From positions 1 to 55,471 of the forward strand of contig JAFUHF010000010.1 in the NCBI GenBank assembly GCA_017468985.1: a stretch of 55,471 bases of DNA, in the 5' to 3' direction. The notes below the pieces were generated by a model that saw only the letters and a list, made by a program, of their open reading frames with translations, ran no database searches and had not been told where the DNA came from. Below, in pieces: positions 32,653 through 52,260 of the stretch. This DNA comes from Bacteroidaceae bacterium. Lineage in GTDB: Bacteria > Bacteroidota > Bacteroidia > Bacteroidales > Bacteroidaceae. Made by a program: the position numbers and the translations under genes. Numbering within the stretch: the stretch's first letter is position 1; the number at the start of each line of letters is the position of its first letter.

Positions 32653-32659
32653 CAGCCAG

Positions 32660-32750
32660 AAAATTGAGGGGTGCCCCGACTTTTGTCCTGGCTGAGAACA
32701 AACCCTTATCACCATCTGAACCGGGTAATGCCGGCGTAGAGAACAATTTT
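32660..32750 (+). promoter_or_regulatory. TPP riboswitch (THI element)
   Basis: The thi-box is unmistakable: GGGGTGCCCC (from 32668), CTGAGA (from 32692), ACCCTTATCACC, then CTGAACCGGGTAATGCCGG and GCGTAG, the conserved pieces of the TPP aptamer. Helix P1 is a perfect 7-bp pairing of AAAATTG (32660-32666) with CAATTTT (32744-32750). The 3' strand of P1 runs into a U-rich stretch and the ATG at 32766 is only 15 bases away, so binding of TPP would stabilise a stem next to the start. Control could be by translation or by termination; I do not see a separate strong terminator hairpin. Confidence 0.96.
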
Positions 32751-32765
32751 TTATTTTTCAATATC

Positions 32766-40462: not shown

Positions 40463-41737
40463 GTGGCACGCCAAATAGAAGACATAGACCTTAGCGGACT
40501 GAGCATTCAGGATTTCGAAGTGATGGCTCCGGCCGGATCGTGGGAGTCGCTTCATGCCGCGCTGAAGGCAGGGGCTGATTCGATATACTTTGGAATAGAA
40601 AGCCTGAACATGAGGGCCCATTCGGCTGCCCATTTTACCATTGAAGACCTGCGGAGCATTGCTTCAATATGTGAACAGGCCGGCGTGAAGAGTTACCTCA
40701 CAGTAAATACCATTATTTATGGCGAAGACTTGCCGTTGATGCGAGAAATATGTCTCGCGGCTAAGAATGCAGGCATCTCGGCCATTATAGCCAGTGACGT
40801 GGCAGTGCTCCAATACTGTCAGGACATCCGGCAGGAAGTGCATCTGTCCACCCAGCTTAACATTTCTAATGTGGAGGCACTGCGTTTTTACGCCCGATAT
40901 GCCGACGTGGTTGTGCTGGCACGCGAACTGAATCTCCAGCAGGTGCAGGACATCTGGCGGCATATCGCTGAGGAAAAAATCACCGGCCCGGGAGGAGGAC
41001 TAATACGCATTGAGATGTTCTGTCACGGTGCATTATGCATGGCTATTAGTGGGAAGTGCTATCTGAGCCTGAATAATACGTCGCGCAGTGCTAACCGCGG
41101 CGAATGTATGCAGCTTTGCAGGCGTGGTTACTATGTGACCGACCGCGAAACGGGCACGGAACTCGAAGTGGACAACAAGTACATCATGAGCCCGAAGGAT
41201 TTAAAGACCGTACGATTCGTGGACCAGATGATGGCGGCCGGCGTGCGCGTGTTTAAGATAGAGGGCAGGGCACGCGGACCGGAATATGTCTACACCGTAG
41301 TGACGTGCTATAAGGCTGCACTGCGTGCGGCCTTGGAAGGAACCCTGACTGAGGAACTCAAGGACGAGTTGGACGAAAAACTGGCCACGGTCTTCAACAG
41401 AGGCTTCTGGGATGGCTACTATCAAGGTCAGATGCTCGGAGAATGGAACAAGGATTACGGTTCGAGTGCCACAAAGCAGAAAATATATGTAGGCAAGGGC
41501 GTGAAGTATTATTCGAACATAGGAGTGGCAGAGTTTGTGATAGAGGCACAGGAAATCAGTCAGGGCGACGAGCTCATGATAACCGGTCCCACAACGGGCA
41601 TCATCTACCTTACGGCCGACGATATTCGCTACGAACTGCAAACCGTGGCTACTGCGAAAAAGGGATGGCATGTATCACTGAAGGTTCCTGAAAAAGTGCG
41701 CCCCAGCGACAAGCTCTTCAAGGTGGTCAGCCGCTGA
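40463..41737 (+). CDS. U32-family protein (tRNA hydroxylation TrhP/YegQ type)
   Basis: 424 aa, starting at GTG 40463 (ARQIEDIDLSG), 25 bases from a perfect promoter. The N-terminal barrel (APAGSWESLHAALKAGADSIYFG) and the U32 signature EMFCHGALCMAISGKCYLS with its Cys residues are intact; further Cys in RGECMQLCRRGYY complete the likely iron-sulfur or metal set. Annotated as peptidase U32, members such as E. coli YegQ (TrhP) are now known to add a hydroxyl to uridine 34 of tRNA from prephenate. Which U32 branch this is cannot be told by eye. A collagenase role is possible but less likely for this kind of conserved cytosolic protein. Confidence 0.85.
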   Translation: MARQIEDIDLSGLSIQDFEVMAPAGSWESLHAALKAGADSIYFGIESLNMRAHSAAHFTIEDLRSIASICEQAGVKSYLTVNTIIYGEDLPLMREICLAAKNAGISAIIASDVAVLQYCQDIRQEVHLSTQLNISNVEALRFYARYADVVVLARELNLQQVQDIWRHIAEEKITGPGGGLIRIEMFCHGALCMAISGKCYLSLNNTSRSANRGECMQLCRRGYYVTDRETGTELEVDNKYIMSPKDLKTVRFVDQMMAAGVRVFKIEGRARGPEYVYTVVTCYKAALRAALEGTLTEELKDELDEKLATVFNRGFWDGYYQGQMLGEWNKDYGSSATKQKIYVGKGVKYYSNIGVAEFVIEAQEISQGDELMITGPTTGIIYLTADDIRYELQTVATAKKGWHVSLKVPEKVRPSDKLFKVVSR

Positions 41738-41794
41738 GTACGTACCTAAAACGACGAAGGAGCCTGTTCCGCCAAGAATGAACTGTGGGGAAAG

Positions 41795-41834
41795 GATAAA
41801 AGAAATGGCCGCGGCAAAATGCATGGCGGCCATT
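41795..41834 (-). terminator. Hairpin with T-rich tail ending the riboswitch-led transcript
   Basis: On the minus strand AATGGCCGC (41834-41826) pairs perfectly with GCGGCCATT (41812-41804), and the stem is followed by TCTTTTATCC. It would stop a transcript coming from the cobalamin riboswitch before it enters the convergent U32 gene. A second hairpin (AAGCCTC/GAGGCTT, 41884-41890 with 41897-41903) lies just upstream of it. Confidence 0.65.
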
Positions 41835-42220
41835 CAGGGAAAAGAAATAAGAGAGTTGTTATCGCCAGGATGAGTGACTGCGGAAGCCTCTGTGTCGAGG
41901 CTTGACGGCTCAATGGCAGGCTGCTGCTCCTCGTGGTTTGCTCTCGAGGGAAAGAAGCACGCGCCGATAGCGACACGGCTTCTTCCGAGAGACTTTGTAA
42001 TATAAGTACAACAACTAAGCCTAACCTACTGACCATGGCAGACGCCACGGCGATGCATTGGACGGCTCAACATGCCCCACGTAAGCCGAAGGCAGAGCCA
42101 CAGCTATTTGCTGCATGCCATGCTGCAGTCATGAACGATCCTCAATAAAACAATTTTGCCTCCTGCCCTTACATCGAGAGCATTCGACCACACTTTCGCA
42201 ACCTCAGAGGTGCATTGTAT
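41835..42220 (-). other. Structured stretch under the cobalamin riboswitch, no convincing gene
   Basis: This interval lies between the end of the riboswitch and the terminator-like hairpin. A 100-codon minus-strand frame (41746-42048) covers part of it, with two hydrophobic patches (LGLVVVLIL and LILAITTLLFLF), but it is rich in Ser/Arg/Pro, resembles nothing I know, and runs straight through the terminator. Hairpins at 41884-41903 and a dyad CTGCA...TGCAG near 42110-42127 are visible. It may be a decayed cobalamin-regulated gene or a noncoding RNA. Confidence 0.5.
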
Positions 42221-42396
42221 AAGGCAGGTCTTCTGACTTTGCTCCACTCCGAAACGCCTTCCCACCCGTAACACTTCCTTCGTTGGGGCAGTGGCTTGAT
42301 TGTTTAGGAGCGACAAGGGAGCTCACAGCTGCGAGACAGTCGGGGATTCACACCCCATTCCCAATTAATCGCGGTTAAACGAACCTTAACGCCTGC
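42221..42396 (-). promoter_or_regulatory. Cobalamin (B12) riboswitch
   Basis: Read on the minus strand the conserved pieces appear in order: a GGTTCG start, GGGAATGGGGTGTGAATCCCC, CGACTGTC, GCAGCTGTGAGC, GCCACTG, GGGAAGGC, and the B12 box AGTCAGAAGACCTGCC. P1 can form between GCAGGC (42396-42391) and CCTGCC (42228-42223). The element is complete and shows no damage in the conserved core. No cobalamin uptake or synthesis gene follows it in the proper direction. Confidence 0.95.
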
Positions 42397-42427
42397 AAAA
42401 GTACAACAAACCTTCGTAGTAGCCAAG
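42396..42427 (-). promoter_or_regulatory. Promoter of the cobalamin riboswitch
   Basis: CTTG (42427-42424), a 20-base gap, then TACTTTTG (42403-42396) on the minus strand, a match to TANNTTTG with one change in the -33 box. Transcription would begin near 42389, at the edge of the aptamer. Confidence 0.65.
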
Positions 42428-42569: not shown

Positions 42570-43613
42570 ATGAAAAGATTCATAGCAGGTCTGCTGCTCA
42601 TTGTGGGATGCGGTTGCTCGCTGGTGGCACAGACGGAAGCCGGACAGTGGATCAACACTTTGCGCGAACATATTCGCATAACGGGATATGCGCAGGGAGG
42701 ATTTGACTATTATGACAAGTCGGAATCCAAGGATCAGTTCAAAATAGCCCGAATAATACTGATGGCCAATGCTCAGATCAATGACCAGATGAGTGCATTT
42801 GCAATGTACGACCTGAAGAGTGCTGCTTTGCACGAAATGTGGTACAATTACAAGGCATGCGAGGGGTTGCAAATAAAGCTGGGACAGTTTAAGACTCCTT
42901 TTACCATAGAAAATCCGCTTTCGCCCACGGTGCTCGAGACGGCGTTTCCTAATTCGCTCGTGGTGGGCAACATGATCTTAGGTGCCGATGCGCTAATGAT
43001 GCCTGGAGCAGCCGGGCGCGACATTGGAGTGACTCTTTACGGCACATGGGCAAAGGGGCTCATAAGTTACGATCTGGCTCTGATGAACGGAGCCGGAAGG
43101 AACAAGGCAGACAACAATTCACAAAAGGACTTGGTGGCGACGTTGCGCGTTAAGCCGTCGTCCTGGCTGTTGCTGAGTGGTAGCATTATGAAGGGAACGG
43201 GAAATGTGGCCGTGCGGCGCGACGCGTCAGGAAACCTTGTGAGCGATGTGGGAAGCCTGAGGGGACTGAAAGCCAATGGAAACTACCGACGTGACCGCTA
43301 TAGTGCAGGCTTTCAACTGAAGACCGACCCTTTCAACCTGCGCTCGGAGTATCTTTATGGCAAGGATGGCCATGTGAGCAGCAAGGGGGCCTATGCCACA
43401 GCCACGGTGAACCATCTGCTGATGCCTCATCTGGACCTGATAGGGTCGTTTGACTGGCTGGACAAGCGTGGAACCAAGCAGAACCGCTGGGTTACGGGTT
43501 TACAGTACTGGTTTTATCCCCAATGCCGTGTGCAGCTCAATTATGCACGGCAACATTTCAATGGCAACTATTCGGAGAACTGCATTTTGGTGCAATTGCA
43601 GGTGAAATTCTGA
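42570..43613 (+). CDS. OprO/OprP-like outer-membrane porin
   Basis: 347 aa with a signal peptide ending in LVAQTEA (a Cys-containing GCGCS stretch before it is not a clear lipobox). The chain has the features of phosphate-selective porins OprO/P: ITGYAQGGFDYYD, an FKIARIILMANAQIND strand, a KLGQFKTPFTIENPLSP stretch, long alternating beta strands and an aromatic final residue (LQVKF). These porins form 16-stranded trimers; Bacteroidetes members have unknown specificity. It stands as a single gene divergent from the cobalamin riboswitch. Confidence 0.85.
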   Translation: MKRFIAGLLLIVGCGCSLVAQTEAGQWINTLREHIRITGYAQGGFDYYDKSESKDQFKIARIILMANAQINDQMSAFAMYDLKSAALHEMWYNYKACEGLQIKLGQFKTPFTIENPLSPTVLETAFPNSLVVGNMILGADALMMPGAAGRDIGVTLYGTWAKGLISYDLALMNGAGRNKADNNSQKDLVATLRVKPSSWLLLSGSIMKGTGNVAVRRDASGNLVSDVGSLRGLKANGNYRRDRYSAGFQLKTDPFNLRSEYLYGKDGHVSSKGAYATATVNHLLMPHLDLIGSFDWLDKRGTKQNRWVTGLQYWFYPQCRVQLNYARQHFNGNYSENCILVQLQVKF

Positions 43614-52157: not shown

Positions 52158-52201
52158 GAGTTCAAGGCAGAAGCCTGAAGGGCTTGTGCAGATAAAACCA
52201 A

Positions 52202-52240
52202 ACCGGCCGAGATGTGACTCACATCTCGGCCGGTCTTCTT
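52202..52240. terminator. Bidirectional terminator between the GlpT-like and HhH genes
   Basis: A perfect 16-base inverted repeat (52202-52217 with 52219-52234, rich in G/C) is followed by TCTTCTT on the plus strand. It separates two convergent genes and can serve both. Confidence 0.85.
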
Positions 52241-52260
52241 ATGTAATGTTCCCTGCCAGA

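Follow-up and report, generated by a model that had tools for sequence, protein, structure and literature searches.

An orphan cobalamin riboswitch in a Bacteroidaceae genome, from a lineage that often carries a conserved RNA element

A B12 riboswitch usually takes its annotation from the gene downstream of it, and the locus studied here raises the question of what such a switch controls when no gene follows. Barrick and Breaker described a handful of good matches not upstream of related genes, and named trans-acting RNAs or recently orphaned switches as explanations (PMC2258182). For the window (the whole stretch of 55,471 nucleotides analysed here), the original prediction placed a short terminated transcript behind a cobalamin aptamer and left two options, a lost target gene or a B12-controlled noncoding RNA. 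These were the right options to weigh, and comparison with relatives shifts weight to the RNA without settling the choice. The riboswitch in the window is confirmed as an orphan, and its lineage frequently produces a conserved RNA element.

The unit, its coding capacity and its neighbours

The unit and the genes on either side comprise the following features:

40463..41737 (+): peptidase U32 gene, convergent (PF01136, E 7.3e-63)
41746..42048 (-): 100-aa GTG ORF, probably spurious (0 Pfam families; codon scores outside the coding range)
41804..41834 (-): terminator-like hairpin with perfect 9-bp arms (41804-41812 / 41826-41834) and a 13-nt loop, then UCUUUU on the minus strand
41935..42009 (-): candidate diverged type C element (UACUUAUAUUACAAAGU), then hairpin 41949-41986; not significant (model R2 with filters off, 4.4 bits, E 1.2)
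42068..42133 (-): 21-codon ORF, read from the translated frame, where a leader-controlled gene would start; without support as a gene (no codon signal in the region)
42122..42164 (-): tail of homology with riboswitch loci of genus g6 continuing past P13 (local alignments)
42165..42183 (-): P13-type expression-platform hairpin ATGCTCTCGATGTAAGGGC, with a loop of CUCGAUGUAAGG type
42206..42403 (-): complete cobalamin riboswitch aptamer (Rfam RF00174)
42396..42426 (-): Bacteroidetes-type promoter, TTG (42426-42424), 20-nt spacer, TACTTTTG (42403-42396); read from the sequence
42570..43613 (+): divergent gene, porin-like (PF07396, E 0.00099, below its cut-off)

By its family match, the aptamer is a complete cobalamin riboswitch aptamer: RF00174 aligns along model positions 1-189 at 92.3 bits (gathering threshold 31.5, E 1.2e-21), which bears out the predicted intact aptamer on the minus strand. 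The Bacteroidetes promoter consensus is TTG / TAnnTTTG, and the claim that the unit has its own promoter of this type on the minus strand agrees with the TTG / TACTTTTG pair found by reading the sequence. This promoter-like pair (42426-42396) overlaps the 5′ edge of the aptamer, and TAnnTTTG stands at the start of five of the six other related aptamers printed. The P13-type hairpin, to which we assume a kissing-loop role, carries a 12-nt motif, CTCGATGTAAGG, common to the window and its g6 homologues L106 and L108; a regular expression found a P13-like motif in 64 of 72 g6 loci. Rfam scans of the unit gave the aptamer alone above threshold; permissive settings brought up a single further match, no better than chance and overlapping the aptamer. 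Elsewhere in the window, a TPP riboswitch at 32657-32760 (+) scores just over its gathering threshold (54.6 vs 54.3 bits).

The hairpin with a T-rich tail that was said to close the unit before the convergent U32 gene is present, with its perfect 9-bp arms and UCUUUU. A simple terminator scan with a loop limit of 8 missed it and listed solely 41977-41960, one site against 1.1 expected in shuffles. Folding z-scores were -3.0 for 41790-42205, -3.3 for 41850-42165 with the terminator left out (0/200 shuffles) and -4.3 for the stretch 41940-42005. Since a z-score of -3.3 is also attained by 15 of 350 stretches of that length across the window (16 shuffles each), folding alone is weak evidence, and we dropped the z-score as a main argument. 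Stronger folds lie elsewhere in the window (32233 (+), z -6.65; 52141 (-), z -6.39; 316-nt stretches, 16 shuffles each), and a weak match to the short-core type C model R3 (52184-52251) sits near the second.

Between P13 and the terminator-like hairpin lie about 400 nt without coding signal. Across 41738-42167, codon scores of all six frames fall below the 5th percentile of true-frame chunks; the best frame has a mean of -0.017, against a 5-95% range of 0.089 to 0.383 for true-frame chunks. Pfam searches of six-frame pieces of this body gave no family above cut-off and one sub-threshold match (PhnH, E 0.066). Protein relatives of six-frame pieces from 41738-42205 were sought by tblastn in 269 loci (275 minus the six that hold the window region), which include proteins after other riboswitches; the best E value was 0.13. 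As positive controls, the receptor loci L022 and L001, themselves in the database, matched 80 and 7 loci. No recognisable gene thus follows the aptamer, as had been claimed, and a conserved protein family in 41746-42048, which would have spoken against the claim, was found neither by Pfam nor by codon scores or tblastn. The unit therefore shows no protein product after its aptamer, as expected of a B12-controlled noncoding RNA. Residual coding signal or similarity in broken frames, the mark of a decayed gene, is likewise lacking in these searches, and a decayed receptor or other gene was rejected as having left no trace in frames, codon scores, Pfam or the 269 loci. Because both controls matched, a recent pseudogene is unlikely on this sequence evidence; an older or deleted gene may leave no such trace.

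The genome of the window spans 2.17 Mb in 87 contigs, is 78.65% complete and contains three cobalamin riboswitches, the window's included. The other two precede a TonB receptor (Plug, PF07715) and NrdD (PF13597). Cobalamin riboswitches are present in sixteen of 18 congeners, 22 in total, and every one is gene-led, meaning here that an ORF of 150 aa or more begins within 300 nt. The genes after them read as receptors, NrdD or a DUF5074 lipoprotein; Pfam was applied to three of them and gave Plug for L020 and L021 and DUF5074 for L024. A cobalamin riboswitch before an anaerobic ribonucleotide reductase gene was seen at L002 (PF13597) and L016 (by similarity). A DNA search for the body in the 18 congeners gave no match, all seven matches, in six genomes, falling inside the aptamer. 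In four congeners (L083, L087, L088, L089), U32 directly precedes the two genes that in the window lie beyond the unit and the porin, presumably an acyltransferase and an rRNA methyltransferase. As the 18 congeners show no such unit, transfer of the riboswitch from a g6-like donor is plausible from the sequence comparison.

The riboswitch lineage of genus g6 and its type C element

Searches for the body after P13 found no convincing relative in 399 family genomes, the window's own and its congeners included, so conservation lends no support to a function. Short DNA matches to the body occurred in eight family genomes. In two of these, L106 and L108, the matching sequence was the P13 hairpin following a different cobalamin aptamer, which led to the comparison with genus g6. 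Rfam gave no match at L107, L110 and L112, three of the six other short-match loci. A B12-box pattern missed even L106 and L108, and its empty result is therefore uninformative. Relatives sought through the neighbouring porin in named genomes amounted to three loci and were not useful.

With the window's aptamer plus P13 as query, 192 of 398 g6 genomes matched at E 1e-6. In a 169-row tree (bootstrap not fully settled, L294 left out), the window row, made up of aptamer, P13 and a few bases, nests with 31 g6 rows at 100/99 support on an end branch of 0.085. In an 88-row tree, which drew a warning of long branches among other rows, the window falls in a 71-row group with 70 g6 rows (93/92) and is sister to 50 of the 70 (96/89), with a branch of 0.18. 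A first aptamer tree had placed it beside orphans of genus g2 on a long branch; that placement was superseded when g6 rows were added and the window moved among them. By this nesting of aptamer and P13, the window's riboswitch belongs by descent to the lineage seen in genus g6. Since the g6 rows had been selected for their similarity to the window aptamer, the informative part is what its closest relatives do rather than the clustering itself. Local alignments with g6 loci, given here without significance values, end past P13 at about 42139 (L291), 42129 (L283), 42122 (L289), 42158 (L297) and 42070 (L370).

What these relatives carry is an element that we call type C, a near-invariant AU-rich AUACGUGUAUUAUUAUAUAAGUU followed by a terminator with covarying arms. 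The type C model R2, built from 23 sequences, reaches a covariation score of 0.417, which none of 500 shuffles equalled (shuffled mean 0.192); seven of its pairs show changes on both sides, a number reached by 24 of 500 shuffles. At E ≤ 0.01, R2 matches 51 of 70 window-like g6 loci, 28 of the 51 lying outside the training set, and the weakest match is L360 at E 0.0086. The 70 loci comprise 68 of the best-ranked window-like matches plus L106 and L108, so that the share holds for window-like riboswitches only; L294 and L362, in which no B12 box was found, had been dropped from 72. We took the count from R2 because a regular expression missed elements (L280 and L354, for example, were labelled as without the core). 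All 51 matching loci have the element 69-216 nt downstream of the B12 box. Traced over the g6 tree, the element label switches about 18 times, which is an upper figure since some elements escaped the labelling pattern; type C is a module that comes and goes.

When ORFs are called mechanically (90 aa or more, within 420 nt), the first one after the element shares its strand in 34 of the 51 loci and is convergent in 15; two loci have none. Seventeen of the 51 therefore have a convergent-or-absent layout, which is the window's layout. In view of the 34 same-strand ORFs, the element may act as an attenuator within a leader instead of being an sRNA. A similar 133-aa ORF occurs with the element lying between the ORF and P13 in L279, L295 and L297, and with no element there in L304 and L338. 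An ORF of 29 residues whose last residues read YNHKA or nearly so (for example MQYIIVVAIEFLFAFVGVGMLIRYYNHKA), which looks hydrophobic and has only sub-threshold Pfam matches, stands right after P13 in L284 and L298, after the terminator in L281, L288, L289 and L292, and further on in L300, L304, L338 and L350; this conserved ORF is perhaps a B12-controlled small membrane protein. L108, L293 and L357 each hold a back-to-back pair of cobalamin riboswitches, one on either strand, with less than 100 nt between them.

Across the 399 family genomes searched, R2 matches at E<1e-9 are found only in ten g6 genomes. Weaker matches (E 1e-5 to 0.01) occur in 106 further genomes, one of them being a site of the type B transcript described below (G070), and those in ten congeners sit on contigs other than the congeners' riboswitches. 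Rfam 15 gave no family above threshold for the elements in the 11 and 13 loci scanned, and a permissive scan of one type C element returned nothing at E 1.

In the window itself, no AUACGUGUAUUAUUAUAUAAGUU-like core with a covarying terminator is detectable. The weak R2 match at 41935-42009 is in the right register before the hairpin 41949-41986; R3, modelled on the short-core subgroup, aligned to a terminator only (6.3 bits, E 0.27). For the core consensus, 387 of 1000 shuffles reached the window's long-form score and 28 of 1000 its short-form score, the better of two tried, so that the latter figure is not decisive. On these figures (R2 E 1.2, R3 terminator only, and the shuffles), membership of the window in type C is not demonstrable by sequence.

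Gene-less riboswitches and types A and B elsewhere in the family

Known cobalamin riboswitches of this phylum had been said to precede receptors or B12-use genes, a premise that proved too simple on two counts: 18 of 136 assessable aptamers in our survey are not gene-led, and the nearest g6 relatives of the window mostly carry an AU-rich element and terminator after the aptamer (51/70). The survey covered 138 aptamers, namely 25 genus rows and 113 of the best-scoring listed matches, and is not a random sample; L116 and L198 were excluded as too short downstream. By the rule used for the congeners, 118 of the 136 are gene-led.

Eleven of the 18 gene-less aptamers are followed by type A, a AAUAAACUCUGCCAAGUUUAUU hairpin with a CUGCCA loop plus a terminator, exemplified in alignment A1 by these sites:

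L185 2363-2434 (-): type A
L123 1348-1419 (-): type A
L159 1090-1161 (+): type A

In the type A model R1 (13 sequences), 11 of 20 pairs are changed on both sides, as many as in none of 500 shuffles, and its covariation score of 0.360 was not attained in any of the 500, which average 0.197. Of the 399 family genomes, 43 have strong R1 matches (E<1e-6), including the 13 training genomes; they span seven genera (g3, g4, g9, g10, g13, g16, g18), and the window's genome has no such match. When the best 30 matches were fetched, 20 of them from outside the training genomes, 26 had a B12-box motif 122-238 nt upstream, and the other four had an ORF of 324-330 aa between B12 box and hairpin. We had called this ORF MetE-like by eye and dropped the name when Pfam gave no match to the one tested. 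As an ORF intervenes in only four of 30, type A has the RNA hairpin as its constant part, with the ORF an optional addition. Type A does not include the window: R1 matches 41793-41862 (17.5 bits, E 0.00084 over 901 bases) at the terminator alone, the AAUAAACUCUGCCAAGUUUAUU hairpin is absent from the window, stricter filters gave no R1 match at E ≤ 0.01 in its genome, and type A was ruled out.

Type B is a shorter conserved transcript after the cobalamin riboswitch in genus g2, running roughly 200-230 nt to its terminator. Among the six g2 genomes, aptamer and body both match in G019, G048, G070 and, in two pieces, G119; in G088 the match is confined to the aptamer, and G104 gives none. The type B loci are L266, L267, L268 and L269, with GUCGUGA in the terminator loop region of three (L266, L268, L269). 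They score a weak 22-30 bits with R2, near the noise level of that search. Types A and B place the layout of a riboswitch followed by a conserved RNA in genera other than g6. About 1.8 kb from one gene-less cobalamin riboswitch, at L219 688-751 (+), there is a match to the sRNA FopS (RF04319, 68.9 bits).

Readings of the unit and known systems

We consider it about an even bet (roughly 50%) that the unit makes a B12-responsive short noncoding transcript of the g6 lineage whose body has diverged. The complete aptamer, P13, the promoter match, the lack of coding signal, the terminator-like hairpin and the nesting in g6 speak for this reading; the undetectable type C element and a structure z-score that is not exceptional for the window speak against it. 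Such a transcript would begin a little way into the aptamer from its 5′ side, cover aptamer and P13, and end at the hairpin 41834-41804 (about 590 nt) or earlier at 41986-41949. Its sensor would come from the g6 riboswitch lineage, whose usual output appears to be a leader with AU-rich element and terminator, a third of them without a same-strand gene next, and its body after P13 would have diverged beyond recognition of the conserved element. We infer that the unit is transcribed and that B12 lowers the amount of full-length RNA. Bacteroides B12 riboswitches are reported as repressed at 37 nM cyanocobalamin and activated at 0.37 nM (PMC6143338), and by analogy the transcript would be full length and abundant when B12 is scarce. 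It might then act in trans, by pairing with mRNAs or by binding an RRM protein; the RRM protein RbpB is reported to prefer AU-rich sequences (PMC11697453).

The close rival, possible if doubtful, is that the unit is a remnant: a g6-lineage riboswitch, copied to this place or left in it, whose target (a gene or an RNA element) has since been lost and whose transcript is idle. The DNA search shows the site in the window's genome only among 19 of the genus (63-99% complete by listing, so that some may miss it), the body matches nothing convincing in the genomes or the 269 loci, and the roughly 18 label changes (an upper figure) imply that loss is common. At L156b, moreover, the ORF after the aptamer has only 128 aa and reads as what we take to be the start of a carboxylase. 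Set against such a relic are the 92.3-bit aptamer with P13 and promoter in place on a short branch (0.085; 0.18), unlike a long-drifting sequence, the lack of any frame with the coding signal that a recent pseudogene would keep, and a directional terminator-like hairpin that is still present.

We regard it as improbable that element and terminator in g6 are simply a riboswitch expression platform that governs read-through into any gene downstream, the window's leader having a gene that is gone or on the other strand. Such an attenuator would fit the same-strand ORF next within 420 nt in 34 of 51 g6 elements and the 133-aa ORF noted above, present in loci both with and without the element. The terminator arms, however, vary with compensation, and the AU-rich core is nearly fixed, so that it does not look like their pairing partner; 17 of 51 elements have no same-strand gene next, and the window's next gene is convergent. 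Least probable of all is a small protein or an antisense RNA against U32 as the real product: the 21-codon ORF (42133-42068) starts about 31 nt after P13, near the start point in gene-led relatives, a 29-aa ORF directly follows P13 in L284 and L298, and the unit is convergent with U32, but the region has neither codon signal nor protein relatives, the 29-aa family was not seen in the printed window frames, and antisense action would need read-through of the terminator-like hairpin that precedes U32.

Returning to the noncoding transcript, we tentatively put forward a broader view, somewhat less probable than that reading itself, in which Bacteroidaceae make several families of B12-riboswitch-controlled sRNAs (A; B in g2; C in g6) and the window is a diverged or stray copy. 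Gene-less cases are not rare in the family (18/136 in a best-scoring sample), and since 11 of the 18 share one conserved, covarying type A element, the choice between trans-acting RNA and orphaned switch posed in PMC2258182 becomes testable. A 2024 atlas of B. thetaiotaomicron lists riboswitch overlap among its sRNA curation criteria, apparently for exclusion (PMC10994844), so RNAs of this kind could be missed by design. An orphan riboswitch whose relatives often bear conserved RNA elements hints at unnoticed B12-controlled RNAs in a major gut group, and if the view is right, sRNAs of types A, B and C would be a hidden arm of B12 regulation. Cobalamin affects about 20% of the genes of X. ruminicola KHP1, in which four riboswitches are reported; two of the four stand directly before genes with proposed roles in transport or biosynthesis, and the authors call the mechanism for the propionate genes unknown (PMC11575231). 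Type C would be a candidate for unexplained B12-dependent changes in rumen Xylanibacter ruminicola if that species falls in g6. A search of the openly available literature (subscription papers and preprints lying outside its scope) found no publication on the three families.

A noncoding RNA controlled by a B12 riboswitch is an already known kind, and families A, B and C are without an Rfam 15 match in the loci scanned. Type C of g6 shares riboswitch lineage and P13 motif with the window and differs in its AU-rich core, which is undetectable in the window. The leaders of TonB receptors, nrdD and DUF5074 lipoproteins in Bacteroidaceae have the window's aptamer class, two of them (receptor, nrdD) in its own genome, but run into an ORF (118/136 surveyed), whereas the riboswitch in the window is followed by no ORF of at least 150 aa within 300 nt. 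FopS and GibS (RF04319) of Bacteroides are short noncoding RNAs of the same phylum, for which the main text of the report gives no riboswitch link, the words cobalamin and riboswitch being absent from it (PMC11697453); Rfam gave no FopS match in the window. Rli55 and AspocR of Listeria monocytogenes are described as noncoding RNAs controlled by B12 riboswitches, their transcripts being truncated by B12 (PMC8079631). Both resemble our reading of the window in that the switch controls something other than an mRNA, and both are set apart by description, Rli55 by its own ANTAR elements, which hold EutV, and AspocR by being antisense to pocR (PMC8079631). They are precedents for protein-sequestering and antisense uses of a B12 riboswitch (PMC8079631).
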